Below, one piece after another: positions 152-10,010 of a DNA stretch of 54,496 bases. The DNA comes from an uncultured Bacillota bacterium. GTDB taxonomy: Bacteria > Bacillota_I > Bacilli_A > Erysipelotrichales > Coprobacillaceae. The stretch spans positions 1 through 54,496 of the forward strand of contig CASETM010000022.1 in the NCBI GenBank assembly GCA_949290865.1, read 5' to 3'. Below the pieces are notes generated by a model. It was not told where the DNA came from, made no database searches, and worked only from the letters and a program-made list of their open reading frames with translations. Position 1 is the stretch's first letter, and every line of letters begins with the position of its first letter. The position numbers and the translations under genes were made by a program.

Positions 152-1000
152 TTATTTATAAGGGCCAAAATCCAAATAGTATGGTTTATGATTATGACGT
201 TGTTCTTTTGGCGGAAGAGTCATGTAATCGCCAAATGATTCGGTTAGATATTTATCAATATTATTAGGAACACGAATTTCAGTATTTTCAAATTTCATTT
301 TTTTAGTTGGATAGATATCACTTTTATTAATGATAGGTTTAAGTTTTGTAGTATTAAATAAATAAGCCATTCTTTTCGTATCTTCGTTTTTATATTTTTT
401 AGTATAATATAGTGCTTTGTTATAGCAGAATTTGCTTTTTATACCACATATTTTTAAAATAACATGAATAAATTTTAAGACAAAGCGAATAATGATTTTT
501 TTGAACCCAAAATAAAATAATGTTGGTTCTTTTAACATCACAAGAATCATGAGTTTGTTCCAAAACCACGCTTTTTTTCCTTGCTTTGTCATTAACTGAT
601 CATCATCTGATACATTATCATAACAAAATAAGTCTAAAAAAATGCCATTTTCACCTTCAAAATCTTTAATATCGTATGTGAGGAAACGAGTACCTTTTAA
701 GCAGATATGCGTATTCATTCCGGGGAAATGTGGATTGGTTTCATAATTTAAAATATAATATTTATCAGGTAATTCAGTTTCAGCAATTTTCATAAATTTA
801 TCAAAGGTCTGCCGATCCATTGCAACATCGATGTCATCATCCCATGGAATAAATCCACCATGTCTTATTGCACCGATCGCACTTCCCCCTGCAGCAAAAT
901 ATTCTAAGTTATGTTTTTCACAGATTTTGTTGAAATCATTTAATATTTCGAGTTCCAGTTGCTGTACTTTTTTTAATGTTTCTGGTTCATATTCTCCCAT
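152..1000 (-). CDS. licD: LicD-family phosphotransferase
   Basis: LicD proteins transfer a phospho-amino-alcohol, classically phosphocholine from CDP-choline, onto cell-surface glycans. The 282-residue product carries the hallmark nucleotidyltransferase-like motif: GGS at residues 38-40, then HGGFIPWDDDIDVAMDR with acidic residues D54, D55, D56 and D58. A basic segment with hydrophobic patches near residues 150-200 may lie on the membrane. A GTG at 1009 could extend it by three residues, but that codon overlaps the AAAGGTGG ribosome binding site, so the ATG at 1000 is chosen. The gene diverges from the cytidylyltransferase/PLP-enzyme fusion, the natural source of its donor. The family is certain; the substrate is not, and phosphocholine is not assumed because no choline kinase or transporter is present here. 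Confidence 0.9.
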   Translation of the reverse strand: MGEYEPETLKKVQQLELEILNDFNKICEKHNLEYFAAGGSAIGAIRHGGFIPWDDDIDVAMDRQTFDKFMKIAETELPDKYYILNYETNPHFPGMNTHICLKGTRFLTYDIKDFEGENGIFLDLFCYDNVSDDDQLMTKQGKKAWFWNKLMILVMLKEPTLFYFGFKKIIIRFVLKFIHVILKICGIKSKFCYNKALYYTKKYKNEDTKRMAYLFNTTKLKPIINKSDIYPTKKMKFENTEIRVPNNIDKYLTESFGDYMTLPPKEQRHNHKPYYLDFGPYK

Positions 1001-1100
1001 AATAGCCACCTTTTCTTTTAAATTTAAAAATAATATAACACATTTACCGGAGTTTATTAAAGAAAAAATAAAAAAAACTTTTTATGTCAATAATATCCTG

Positions 1101-1106
1101 TATAAT
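1101..1106 (+). promoter_or_regulatory. Likely -10 box for the cytidylyltransferase/PLP fusion gene
   Basis: A perfect TATAAT lies 31 bases before the ATG at 1137. The -35 region (TTTTTA near 1079) is weak. Confidence 0.5.
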
Positions 1107-1136
1107 GGTATTGATGAAGAAAAGGAGAATTTTGAT

Positions 1137-2945
1137 ATGCAAGCATTAATTTTGGCAGCAGGAATGGGGAAAAGATTAAAAGAATTAACTAAAAATAATA
1201 CAAAATGTATGGTTAAAGTGAATGATGTTACGTTAATTGACAGAATGTTGCATCAAATTGAAAAATATAATCTTTCACGTATTGTTATTGTTGTTGGTTA
1301 TGAGGGAGATAAATTAAAACAATATATTGCTACTTTAAATATTAAAACACCGATAGTTTATGTGGAAAACCCAATCTATGATAAAACGAACAATATTTAT
1401 TCTTTAGCGTTGGCAAAGGAACATCTATGTAATGATGATACTTTACTGTTTGAATCAGATCTCATATTCGAGGATGACGTCATTAAACTATTGATTGAAG
1501 ATGAACGACCAACATTAGCGTTAGTAGATAAATACGAAAGCTGGATGGATGGGACATGTGTCAAAATAGATGAAGAAGATTCTATTGAAGCTTTTATCCC
1601 TGGAAAAAAATTTAAATTTGATGAGATAAAAAATTATTATAAAACAGTTAATATTTACAAGTTCAGTAAAGAATTTGCGATAAACTGCTATGTTCCCTTT
1701 TTAGATGCTTATTCTAAAGCGTTGGGAAATAATGAATATTACGAACAGGTATTAAGGGTGATTACAATGCTCGATAATCCTGAAATTAAAGCAAAAAGAT
1801 TAAATGGACAGTTATGGTACGAAATAGATGATATTCAAGATTTGGATATTGCTACATCAATGTTTGTTGATGATGAAGATAAAAAAGTTTTGTTATTACA
1901 GGATCGCTATGGTGGATATTGGCGCTATCCACAATTAATTGATTTCTGTTATCTGGTGAATCCATATTATCCACCGCAAAAGCTGTTAGATGAAATAAAG
2001 GCGAGTATGGAAAAGTTAATAACACAATATCCTTCTGGAATGGGAGTCAATGCTTTGCTTGCATCAAAGAATTTTAATGTTCACCAGGAAAATATTGTTG
2101 TAGGGAATGGAGCGGCAGAATTAATAAAGGCATTAATAGAAGGATTTTCAGGAAATTTGGGATTCATTAGACCAACTTTTGAAGAATACCCTAACCGTTA
2201 TCAGGCAGAAAAATCTGTTGTATATCAGGTAGATAATGCCAATTTTAGTTATACTGCAGAAGATCTCATTGATTTTTTTGACAATAAAACAATTGAAGCA
2301 TTAATTTTGGTCAATCCAGATAATCCAACGGGTAATTATATCTGTAAAAAAGATCTTTTAAAATTAATCGAATGGTCAAAGGATAAAAAAATAAAATTAA
2401 TTATTGATGAGTCTTTTGTTGATTTTGCAGAAGAAAAAGACAGTACTTTACTGGAACAACAAATACTAGACGAAAATGATCATTTATATGTGATTAAAAG
2501 TATTTCTAAATCTTACGGAATACCTGGATTGAGATTAGGAGTATTAGCTTCAGGCGATGCTGATGTTATCAGTAAGATAAAAAAAGATGTATCAATCTGG
2601 AATATAAATTCATTAGCAGAATTCTATATGCAAATAGAAGAAAAATATAAGAAAGATTATGAAAACAGTCTGATAAAAATAAAAGCTGAAAGAAAAAGAT
2701 TTATATCTGAATTAAATAAGATTGATGGGATTAGAACCATACCGTCACAGGCAAATTATATTATGTGCGAACTCGCAAATATAAGTTCAAAAGAATTAAC
2801 GAAAAGACTTTTATTGAAATATAATTTGTTTATAAAAGATCTGTCTAAAAAAGTTAATGGAAAACCATATGTAAGAATTGCAGTAAGAAATACAGAAGAT
2901 AATGATAAATTGATAAAAGCAATAAAAATAGAAATGGGGAAATAA
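1137..2945 (+). CDS. Fusion: LicC-like cytidylyltransferase + CobD/HisC-like PLP enzyme
   Basis: This 602-residue two-domain protein should make and activate a small phosphorylated amine. Residues 1 to about 235 are a LicC-type nucleotidyltransferase (LAAGMGKRL signature near residue 6, KCMVKVN after it). Residues from about 245 to 602 are a fold-type I PLP enzyme with NPDNPTG near 393, DESFVDF near 424, and the cofactor lysine in SKSYGIPGLRLG at about K458. The DESFVDF and IPGLRLG wording recalls CobD, a threonine-phosphate decarboxylase, at least as much as HisC. Decarboxylation of phosphoserine or phosphothreonine followed by cytidylylation is therefore an attractive inference. Plain transamination is the alternative. 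The start is the ATG at 1137, preceded by AAAGGAG; the open frame back to 831 is antisense to licD and rejected. The next gene begins one base after the stop. Confidence 0.85.
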   Translation: MQALILAAGMGKRLKELTKNNTKCMVKVNDVTLIDRMLHQIEKYNLSRIVIVVGYEGDKLKQYIATLNIKTPIVYVENPIYDKTNNIYSLALAKEHLCNDDTLLFESDLIFEDDVIKLLIEDERPTLALVDKYESWMDGTCVKIDEEDSIEAFIPGKKFKFDEIKNYYKTVNIYKFSKEFAINCYVPFLDAYSKALGNNEYYEQVLRVITMLDNPEIKAKRLNGQLWYEIDDIQDLDIATSMFVDDEDKKVLLLQDRYGGYWRYPQLIDFCYLVNPYYPPQKLLDEIKASMEKLITQYPSGMGVNALLASKNFNVHQENIVVGNGAAELIKALIEGFSGNLGFIRPTFEEYPNRYQAEKSVVYQVDNANFSYTAEDLIDFFDNKTIEALILVNPDNPTGNYICKKDLLKLIEWSKDKKIKLIIDESFVDFAEEKDSTLLEQQILDENDHLYVIKSISKSYGIPGLRLGVLASGDADVISKIKKDVSIWNINSLAEFYMQIEEKYKKDYENSLIKIKAERKRFISELNKIDGIRTIPSQANYIMCELANISSKELTKRLLLKYNLFIKDLSKKVNGKPYVRIAVRNTEDNDKLIKAIKIEMGK

Positions 2946-2946
2946 A

Positions 2947-4026
2947 TTGAATATAACGATTGTTGGGGGAGGAAACATAGGAACACAATTTGCAGTTCAC
3001 TGTGCAGAAAAAGGACATCATGTTATTATATATAGTTCTAAACCCGATAAAATTGATAAAAATATTAAAATAGTCAATGAAAATAATGAAATTATTCATG
3101 AAAGTCAAGATATCCACGCAACAAATAATGACAATAAAGCTTTTAATGAAGCAAATTTGATATTTGTAACATTACCAGCTTTCTGTATGAAAGAATTTAG
3201 TCAAAAAATATATCCTTATATCCACGAAGGGCTAATGATTTGTCTTGTCCCAGGAACAGGTGGAGGAGAATGTTTTTTTAGAGAACATATAGAACGAGGT
3301 GTCGTAATTTTTGGCTTGCAAAGAGTTCCTTCTGTTGCTCGTCTGATTGAATATGGGAAAACAGTTAGAGCAGTTGGATATCGAGATGAACTTTTTGTTG
3401 CGGCGATACCAGGCAATCAAACTGTAGAGTGCGCATCATTGATCGAAAGTATCTTTAATATAAAAGCAACATCGTTACCTAATTATTTGAATATTACATT
3501 AACACCGTCTAATCCAATTTTGCATACAACAAGATTGAATATATTATTTCAAAATTATAAAAAAGGGTGTGTATATGAACAGCTGCCTTTATTTTATGAA
3601 GATTGGGATGATGAAACATCAAGGTTACTATTTAAGTGTGACGATGAAGTTCAACGAATCTGTTCATTATTAACGTCTTTCGATTTGTCGTTTGTAAAAT
3701 CGTTAAAAGAACACTATGAAAGTTTTACACCAGAATTATTAACAGAAAAAATCAGGAGCATTAAAGGATTCAAAGGATTGAAAACACCTGCGCTTAAAGT
3801 GGAAAACGGTTTTATACCTGATTTCAGTTCCAGGTATTTTACAGCAGATTTTTCATTTGGATTAACTATTCTTATACAAATTGCGCAATTATACAATATT
3901 GATACACCTTATATGAAAAAGGTTATGAATTGGTATCTGGAGATATGTGAAGAAAAAAATCATTTTAATTTTAGAGATGTTGGACTGACATCAAAAAGCA
4001 AATTTGAGGATTTTTATCAGCAGTAG
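2947..4026 (+). CDS. Octopine/nopaline-type (opine) dehydrogenase family protein
   Basis: Opine dehydrogenases reductively join an amine to a 2-keto acid using NAD(P)H. The 359-residue protein begins with a Rossmann signature (ITIVGGGNIGTQFA) and contains a conserved nucleotide-domain segment around PGTGGGECFF. Its C-terminal helical domain has SNPILHTTRL, the usual place of the family catalytic histidine, and a typical SSRYFTADFSFGL helix. The length is normal for the family. Translation starts at a TTG one base after the fusion gene stop, so the two are surely co-expressed and probably act on the same molecule. Family membership is firm. The substrate is inferred only: perhaps the amino group of the phosphoamine made upstream. 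Confidence 0.8.
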   Translation: MNITIVGGGNIGTQFAVHCAEKGHHVIIYSSKPDKIDKNIKIVNENNEIIHESQDIHATNNDNKAFNEANLIFVTLPAFCMKEFSQKIYPYIHEGLMICLVPGTGGGECFFREHIERGVVIFGLQRVPSVARLIEYGKTVRAVGYRDELFVAAIPGNQTVECASLIESIFNIKATSLPNYLNITLTPSNPILHTTRLNILFQNYKKGCVYEQLPLFYEDWDDETSRLLFKCDDEVQRICSLLTSFDLSFVKSLKEHYESFTPELLTEKIRSIKGFKGLKTPALKVENGFIPDFSSRYFTADFSFGLTILIQIAQLYNIDTPYMKKVMNWYLEICEEKNHFNFRDVGLTSKSKFEDFYQQ

Positions 4027-8108: not shown

Positions 8109-10010
8109 ATGTTAAGTTATTTTATAGGTCTTTTATATGTTCTGTTAAGCATAGTTTTATATCAATTGGTTGGAATGTGTTTTACAAAGAAAGAGTCATA
8201 TTCTTACTCATTTATAATGGGATTTATCATTTATAGTTTTTTTGTAGCAATATTAGGTGTAGCGGTACAGTTTTTAAACTTATCGTGGTATGTATTTTTC
8301 TTTGGAATGATTGCTATTTGGATTGGATTAATATTTTTTATTATTTATAATTTTGTCAATAAACGATTGAAATTTTCCTTACAGGATTTTTATGCTTATA
8401 TAAAAGAAAATTGGTTTTTTTATGCAGGTACAGTCTTTTTGGTTTTGTTTGCGTTGGCTCATGTTGCGACAATATGGTCTAATAATTTAACAGATGACAG
8501 TTATTATATTAACCTGATGGCAACAATGCCTTATGTTCAAGATCCTTTCCATGTTGATCCATCAACCGGATTTGTGAGTAGTACTTTATCTCTGGAAAGG
8601 ATAATCAACACATTTGAAATTGAAGGATCTTTTTATGTTTACATAACGCAGATGCCAGCAACTCTGTATGCGAGAGTTTTTCTGGCTGGACTGAATTATT
8701 TTATAATTTTGCAGTCAATAAACGCATTTTTAATAAAAATAACAAAGTCGCAAAACAAATATAATCAATTTATCATTACAGCTATATTTTTAATTTTTGT
8801 TATGAATGCACAGTATTTTTTAAATACTGAAGCAGCATGGACCATTACTTCTGCGGCATATTTTGGTTCAGCGTTAATAAGAATAAGCTGCCCATTCATT
8901 GTTTTACTGCCATTAATAAATGATGAAAAATTGGATGTAAAAAAAATGATTGTGACATTTATAATTTGTGTAGTCATGGTTTCTAAGTCGACTTGTGCAA
9001 TTCCTATTTTGTACCTTTTGGCAATTGGGTATTTGGTTACATATAAAATTTATGAAAAGTATTGGTATGCTTTATTGATACCTTTAATGGGAGTAATTGG
9101 AGTGGTTATACCCAATAATGGGGAGTTAGAGAATTATGGATTCGAAATGATTAGTAACAATGCTACTTCTGTTTTTTTGATTATTGCATTCATTTTGATG
9201 ATGATATTTGCAAAAAATTATTTTGAGCATAAAAGAATAACAATTATGATCGTTGTCGCAATGATATTAAGTTTCGTTCCTTTCATCAATAATGTTTATG
9301 AAAACTTAACACAATTTACTTTTGTTGATGATAGGACATGGTATACTTTATCATTATTTATCATGATAAGTGGTTTCTATTGTTTGGTTAATTTTCTTTT
9401 TGAAAAATACATTTTTAGAATAAATATTTTTATCCAAATATTTTTGGTTGCTGTCATAACCGTTGGAAGTGGTTTTGTTTCTGTAGATATGGGAAAAGAT
9501 ATGCATGCAGGAATGGTTATTAGAAATTTTTTGACAATATATAAAAATAATAAGTATATTATTCCTCAGGGTACTATGAATTTAGGTATCGAATTAAATA
9601 ACTATTATGAAGAAACTCATAAAGAATTAAAAGTTTTGATGGGAGCAGGATTGGTGATAGATGAACATAATCATAATACGGCAGCAATCTTAAGAACATT
9701 TGCACCACATATTCAATCTATTACGGGAGGAATAAGAATACAAACTGAGATTTTTAATGAAAATTCAGAATTTAAAGGATACGATTTAGATGATTTGGCA
9801 ATATTTAATGAATTTGAAATTAACCCTTGTGAGGAGACTTTCAAGCCATTTAAGCAATTAAATAACGAATTTCCTTTCGATTGTGTGGTTATACTCAATT
9901 CGAACAATGATCATAGCGAATTTTTGAAAACTATAGGGTATCATTTATATAATAAAGCTTATGATAACCTAAATAGATATTATTATGGTATTTTTATAAA
10001 GGAAAAATAA
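8109..10010 (+). CDS. Large polytopic membrane protein, probable GT-C-type glycosyltransferase
   Basis: The 633-residue protein has roughly a dozen hydrophobic segments over the first 460 residues and then a soluble C-terminal domain of about 170 residues. An acidic pair in the first large external loop (NNLTDDSYYIN, D129/D130) fits the catalytic aspartates of GT-C enzymes that use polyprenyl-phosphate sugars outside the membrane. It resembles the uncharacterised DUF6077-like membrane proteins of Firmicute polysaccharide loci. GAGAGGG precedes the ATG. It is the last gene before a terminator. GT-C function is inferred from topology and loop motif; a polymerase or acyltransferase role is not excluded. 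Confidence 0.65.
   Translation: MLSYFIGLLYVLLSIVLYQLVGMCFTKKESYSYSFIMGFIIYSFFVAILGVAVQFLNLSWYVFFFGMIAIWIGLIFFIIYNFVNKRLKFSLQDFYAYIKENWFFYAGTVFLVLFALAHVATIWSNNLTDDSYYINLMATMPYVQDPFHVDPSTGFVSSTLSLERIINTFEIEGSFYVYITQMPATLYARVFLAGLNYFIILQSINAFLIKITKSQNKYNQFIITAIFLIFVMNAQYFLNTEAAWTITSAAYFGSALIRISCPFIVLLPLINDEKLDVKKMIVTFIICVVMVSKSTCAIPILYLLAIGYLVTYKIYEKYWYALLIPLMGVIGVVIPNNGELENYGFEMISNNATSVFLIIAFILMMIFAKNYFEHKRITIMIVVAMILSFVPFINNVYENLTQFTFVDDRTWYTLSLFIMISGFYCLVNFLFEKYIFRINIFIQIFLVAVITVGSGFVSVDMGKDMHAGMVIRNFLTIYKNNKYIIPQGTMNLGIELNNYYEETHKELKVLMGAGLVIDEHNHNTAAILRTFAPHIQSITGGIRIQTEIFNENSEFKGYDLDDLAIFNEFEINPCEETFKPFKQLNNEFPFDCVVILNSNNDHSEFLKTIGYHLYNKAYDNLNRYYYGIFIKEK

Follow-up and report, generated by a model that had tools for sequence, protein, structure and literature searches.

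Positions 152 to 4,026 of contig CASETM010000022.1 (assembly GCA_949290865.1), from an uncultured Bacillota bacterium of the Coprobacillaceae, encode a LicD-family phosphotransferase, a two-domain fusion protein and an opine dehydrogenase (ODH). We read these three genes, with a probability of roughly 0.6, as an activated-phosphoamine tailoring module that would place N-(1-carboxyethyl)ethanolamine phosphate on a glycan. The substrates, the order of the steps and the product are what we infer, while the enzyme families, their intact catalytic residues, the fold of the ODH and its linkage to the fusion are established by the results below. The pyridoxal phosphate (PLP) domain of the fusion would decarboxylate O-phospho-L-serine to ethanolamine phosphate or, less likely, O-phospho-threonine to 1-amino-2-propanol phosphate. 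Its LicC/PntC-like domain would then use cytidine triphosphate (CTP) to form cytidine diphosphate (CDP)-ethanolamine, and the ODH would reductively join the primary amine to a keto acid; in the simplest case this would be pyruvate, with NAD(P)H as the reductant, and the N-(1-carboxyethyl) form would result. LicD would finally move N-(1-carboxyethyl)ethanolamine phosphate from the CDP carrier onto a sugar of the rhamnose-containing polysaccharide of the adjacent locus. The window referred to below is the whole stretch of 54,496 nucleotides that was analysed.

Gene layout and enzyme families

The features of the module are as follows.

152-1000, minus strand: LicD-family phosphotransferase (PF04991, E=1e-38, 134 bits against a cut-off of 22.6)
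1001-1136, no strand: intergenic region from which licD and the fusion gene diverge, with ribosome-binding sites for both genes (from the sequence)
1137-1875, plus strand: N-terminal domain of the fusion, residues 1 to ~245, LicC/PntC-like cytidylyltransferase (matches to 6PD1 and 1JYK; conservation)
1905-2945, plus strand: C-terminal domain of the fusion, residues ~257-602 and stop, CobD/serine-phosphate-decarboxylase-like PLP enzyme (PDB matches; TIGR01140 scoring above TIGR01141; conservation)
2947-4026, plus strand: ODH with a TTG start (PF02317, E=3.7e-27; PDB alignments; AlphaFold2/Foldseek; conservation)

The ATG at 1137, preceded by AAAAGGAG, is the start codon of the fusion, whose protein is 602 amino acids long (1137-2945). 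A start at 831, corresponding to a 704-residue open reading frame, was rejected as an artefact, as that early in-frame ATG sits inside licD. For licD itself, the ATG at 1000 is more likely than the annotated start of the reading frame, GTG at 1009, because the latter falls in the gene's own AAGGTGG ribosome-binding site. The stop codon of the fusion ends at 2945, leaving a single base before the TTG of the ODH. All Pfam matches exceeded their cut-offs, including the two within the fusion (NTP_transf_3, E=1.4e-10, and Aminotran_1_2, E=1.3e-34), and the motifs DESFVDF (within residues 423-430, IDESFVDF) and IPGLRLG (462-468) lie in its PLP domain. Coordinates, Pfam matches and motif positions bear out the earlier note on this DNA, which had described a licD diverging from a LicC-like/PLP fusion with CobD-like motifs, and an ODH homologue starting one base past it.

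The domains of the fusion are assigned from sequence, since its full-length AlphaFold2 model was not good enough to be used (pLDDT 69.6). The N-terminal domain belongs with LicC and PntC, both by similarity to solved proteins (nearest the PntC-2-aminoethylphosphonate (AEP) transaminase fusion 6PD1, E=6.5e-15, and LicC 1JYK, E=6.1e-13) and by its catalytic and metal residues, with R13, K23, D108, E229 and D231 kept in all of 107 homologues. Glu106 and Glu203 are likewise invariant in 107/107. The former aligns with Glu104 of PntC, and the latter pairs with PntC Glu196 only if the alignment is moved by one residue; these two glutamates of PntC lie close to the primary amine, at a place taken in LicC by a shorter Asp (PMC6697681).

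The PLP domain matched 6OUX (148 bits) and 3FTB (144) best among solved structures, followed by CobD 1LC5 (97), the CobD-like 3FKD (90.5) and HisC 8BJ1 (89). While 3FTB was deposited as HisC, 6OUX carries the molecule name 'threonine phosphate decarboxylase-like enzyme', and we take it to be SMUL_1544, presumably a serine-phosphate decarboxylase. Phe427, where the HisC motif DEAY has Tyr, and the PLP-binding Lys458 are found in 107/107 homologues. Residues 488-491 read WNIN, as in 6OUX (CobD, WSVN; HisC, YNVS), with W488 and N491 again in 107/107, and residues 580-584 follow RxAx[RK] (R580 and R/K584 in 107/107, A582 in 103/107), for which CobD has RVAIR, 6OUX RIAGR and HisC RVSVG. The closest relatives are thus of the decarboxylase type rather than HisC, and the active-site pattern of Phe, WxxN, RxAx[RK] and Lys is that of CobD-type enzymes. 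We therefore predict that the domain is probably of the serine-/threonine-phosphate decarboxylase type. In Campylobacter jejuni, the serine-phosphate decarboxylase Cj1436 serves the capsule (PMC12409886).

The ODH scored 95.6 bits against PF02317 (cut-off 30) and has the Rossmann N-terminal domain and fold of octopine dehydrogenase (OcDH) and N-(1-D-carboxylethyl)-L-norvaline dehydrogenase (CENDH). Its AlphaFold2 model (pLDDT 92) found 3C7D as the top Foldseek match (E=2.4e-25), in agreement with Pfam and with a PDB sequence search (OcDH 3C7A, CENDH 1BG6), at an identity to known opine dehydrogenases of ~20-22% in the fold alignment. The catalytic triad His212/Arg324/Asp329 of OcDH aligns with His193/Arg296/Asp301, which are kept in 52/52, 51/52 and 52/52 homologues, respectively. 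The position of the arginine-binding Glu142 of OcDH is Gln or Glu in the ODH family and does not discriminate the amine. The enzyme is predicted to condense an amine reductively with a keto acid, and ethanolamine derivatives and pyruvate are the candidate substrates.

Association of the dehydrogenase with the fusion, and its replacement

One scan of genome contigs yielded 427 stretches with a relative of the fusion. Locus counts were taken from the best 80 of these (68-73% identity), which come from Firmicutes, spirochaetes and others; adjacency was defined as lying within 300 nt, and 59 loci were fully flanked, with at least 1.5 kb on either side. An ODH adjoins the fusion in 25 of the 59, and LicD lies within 300 nt of it in 14/80. 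Among 275 sampled genomes from the order of genome G400, the fusion occurs in 20 and the ODH in six, all of which carry the fusion (p=7e-8, a value that, like the exclusion p-value below, ignores the kinship of the genomes), and in five of the six the two genes share one short stretch. Mapped on the tree of the fusion, the adjacency of the ODH requires a minimum of 21 changes, seven of them forced by well-supported branches, which indicates that the ODH neighbour has been repeatedly gained or lost. Repeated re-association is stronger evidence of function than a single inherited cluster, and the arrangement is not due to chance.

The slot of the ODH is also filled by a second, unrelated imine-reductase family. 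A gene of the OCD_Mu_crystall family (OCD) occupies it in 14/59 flanked loci and accompanies an adjacent ODH in none (exclusion p=1e-4), while both genes occur somewhere on the locus in 3/80. One such gene lies at L068:9816-10778, the others in 13 further fully flanked loci. Among cultured carriers of the fusion, Bilifractor porci is of the OCD type, while in Bullifex porci the ODH is the adjacent gene. The best scores of the OCD protein are to the ornithine cyclodeaminase, alanine dehydrogenase, SbnB and imine-reductase families, and it was found in three of the 275 genomes, two of them with the fusion. The active-site residues of the fusion are identical whether its neighbour is an ODH, an OCD gene or neither of them. 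This constancy suggests that the fusion most likely always makes CDP-ethanolamine, with the N-modifier acting afterwards, and on the order that we infer, the ODH step probably takes place on CDP-ethanolamine or later.

Relatives of the fusion appear in several further settings. In the cyanobacterium Gloeothece, the fusion is followed by an S-adenosylmethionine (SAM) methyltransferase and LicD. Plasmids of Rahnella and Erwinia (L086, L126) share a near-identical order of fusion, CDP-alcohol phosphotransferase, HAD, HAD-IIIC, SDR, ATP-grasp and MFS genes, which looks like an undescribed phospho-natural-product cluster. Rhizobium sp. 007 (L124:2732-8814) brings together a cytidylyltransferase, a CobD-like PLP enzyme, a CDP-alcohol phosphotransferase, a 25%-identical opine dehydrogenase and a SAM methyltransferase, a set that suggests the same chemistry in a form directed at lipids or small molecules. 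In a Phascolarctobacterium and in Fusobacterium vincentii, a DUF1015 gene directly follows the fusion (L047:9816-11027 and L085:9820-10866), and its product might supply or recycle phosphoserine. On plasmid pBM700 of Priestia megaterium (L087:7992-11638), genes close to a fusion homologue encode ATP-grasp enzymes, an AAC(3)-family acetyltransferase and an additional 1-deoxy-D-xylulose 5-phosphate reductoisomerase (DXR); this cluster possibly makes a DXR-targeting compound. These arrangements indicate that the phosphoamine and CTP core is combined with various transferases and various N-modifiers. Whether this amounts to a widespread modular system of gut bacteria is, in our estimation, an evenly balanced question; in such a system, the phosphoserine-to-CDP-ethanolamine fusion would combine with interchangeable N-modifiers (ODH, OCD, the cyanobacterial methyltransferase) to yield N-substituted, partly zwitterionic phosphoethanolamine decorations of surface glycans.

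Host context, product and alternative explanations

The polysaccharide part of the window has 27-29% G+C, compared to 34-37% beyond ~25 kb, and the fusion was found in only four of 395 genomes of the host's class, which together suggest lateral acquisition. Alongside the module, the locus carries genes for an ABC exporter and glycosyltransferases as well as for RmlD and a Cps2T-type rhamnosyltransferase. This gene content makes a polysaccharide that contains rhamnose the probable acceptor. No LpxC was found in the host genome; the polymer is therefore probably a wall or capsular polysaccharide, and lipopolysaccharide is an unlikely acceptor. A DUF6077 membrane protein is also encoded within the polysaccharide locus (8109-10010 of the window). 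The host genome encodes SerC, so phosphoserine is available. It holds a single LicD match (PF04991), no choline-kinase family protein and no phosphoenolpyruvate (PEP) mutase above the cut-off, with one weak match below it. Thus no source of a CDP-amino alcohol other than the fusion is evident for the sole LicD.

The earlier note had pointed to a carboxyethyl-ethanolamine phosphate on a Proteus mirabilis polysaccharide, presumably that of serotype O14. Octopine dehydrogenase and CENDH produce D (R) centres and, by analogy with the former, the N-(1-carboxyethyl) centre made here is expected to be (R), which would fit the known (R) substituent of P. mirabilis. At the species level this precedent holds, as N-[(R)-1-carboxyethyl]ethanolamine phosphate (R-Cet-EtnP) is among the components of P. 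mirabilis O-polysaccharides (PMC9630907). The ODH matches from Proteus in the plasmid collection reach just 25% identity.

Several observations weigh against the proposed pathway. The opine dehydrogenases known so far mostly take amino acids as the amine (PMC10787698), while ethanolamine derivatives lack an alpha-carboxylate. The PLP domain scores 176 bits against the CobD equivalog TIGR01140, under its cut-off of 290.55, and 161.6 bits against TIGR01141 (HisC); it is therefore classed as CobD-type rather than as CobD, and phosphoserine is its candidate rather than its established substrate. The ODH is not adjacent in 34/59 flanked fusion loci, which places it outside the core module, and neither reductase adjoins the fusion in 20/59. 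Copies of the ODH also stand apart from the fusion, as an orphan in genome G454 and as a second copy in G627. The latter (L134:7311-9686) lies beside an ATP-grasp-like gene.

The 34 flanked loci without an adjoining ODH show that the fusion works without it, and would fit an explanation in which the decoration is plain phosphoethanolamine or aminopropanol phosphate, while the ODH merely shares the locus and equips another glycan component, an amino sugar or an amino acid, with an opine-type group. N-carboxyethyl amino acids do occur in other bacterial polysaccharides, and the second ODH of G627 is in a polysaccharide locus with no local fusion. We nevertheless consider this explanation unlikely, given that every ODH genome in the sampled order has the fusion, that the ODH is usually the immediate next gene, that the association shifts repeatedly on the tree and that an unrelated imine-reductase family takes the same slot. 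Rather improbable is a PLP domain acting as a transaminase, for example by converting dihydroxyacetone phosphate to serinol phosphate, as in Cj1437, which would lead to CDP-serinol and N-carboxyalkyl serinol phosphate. The domain does belong to the fold-type-I aminotransferase family, its HisC score is close behind that for CobD, and there is precedent both in Cj1437 (PMC12409886) and in the PntC of Treponema denticola, which is fused to a transaminase (PMC6697681). However, the structures closest to the domain are of the decarboxylase type, Phe replaces the Tyr of DEAY throughout the homologues, and the RxAx[RK] and WNIN motifs are CobD-type.

A pathway in which the fusion handles phosphonoalanine or aminoethylphosphonate in place of phosphate esters is very improbable. 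Its cytidylyltransferase domain is PntC-like, and in Bradyrhizobium and Mesorhizobium split cytidylyltransferase and CobD-like genes stand beside a PEP mutase gene (aepX); yet the genes that recur beside the fusion in the gut loci included no recognised PEP mutase, and a phosphonate origin was rejected for the host genome, where the only PEP mutase match is the weak one below the cut-off. The phosphoamine pathway advanced in the earlier note stands in its enzyme classes, its logic and its link between dehydrogenase and fusion, by homology, invariant residues, co-occurrence and re-association, with substrates, step order and product remaining conditional.

Relation to known systems and significance

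The module shares LicC-like activation by CTP and transfer by LicD with the Lic pathway for phosphocholine (LicA-LicC-LicD; Streptococcus pneumoniae, Haemophilus influenzae and P. mirabilis O18), but it has no choline kinase, its phosphoamine would be made in situ by the fused decarboxylase-type domain, and an ODH is added. The PLP domain resembles CobD of cobamide synthesis, Cj1436 of the C. jejuni capsule and 6OUX (presumably SMUL_1544) in sequence, motifs and probable reaction; unlike them, it is fused to a cytidylyltransferase in polysaccharide loci, and its product would go to a CDP-amine rather than to a cobamide or an amide. With OcDH (3C7A) and CENDH (1BG6), the ODH has in common its fold, its NAD(P)-binding domain and the His/Arg/Asp triad, but its amine would be an ethanolamine derivative rather than an amino acid. 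With Tde1415, the PntC-AEP transaminase fusion of the Pnt pathway in T. denticola (6PD1; PMC6697681), the fusion shares an N-terminal cytidylyltransferase and a C-terminal PLP enzyme, and possibly the Glu pair for a primary amine. It differs in the kind of PLP enzyme, which is CobD-like (class I/II family) and not a class V AEP transaminase, and no PEP mutase exceeds the cut-off in the host genome. R-Cet-EtnP of P. mirabilis (PMC9630907) equals the predicted end product; it is known chemically from a Gram-negative O-antigen, whereas here the bacterium has no LpxC.

To call this a new decoration, as the earlier note did, was too strong, since the structure of the likely product is already known to chemistry. 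The novelty lies in the gene set that we propose, in its spread and in the swappable N-modifying slot; the literature searched contained neither a gene set for R-Cet-EtnP nor a paper joining LicD with an opine dehydrogenase. If the pathway operates as proposed, it would assign genes to N-(1-carboxyethyl)ethanolamine phosphate, so far known from polysaccharide chemistry, and CDP-ethanolamine would be made de novo, with no need for imported ethanolamine or choline. Phospho-amine decorations often alter recognition by host proteins and phages, and the fusion is common in gut Firmicutes and spirochaetes, one scan having yielded more than 400 related stretches. Since two unrelated reductase families replace each other in the module, these bacteria are predicted to carry different N-substituents.

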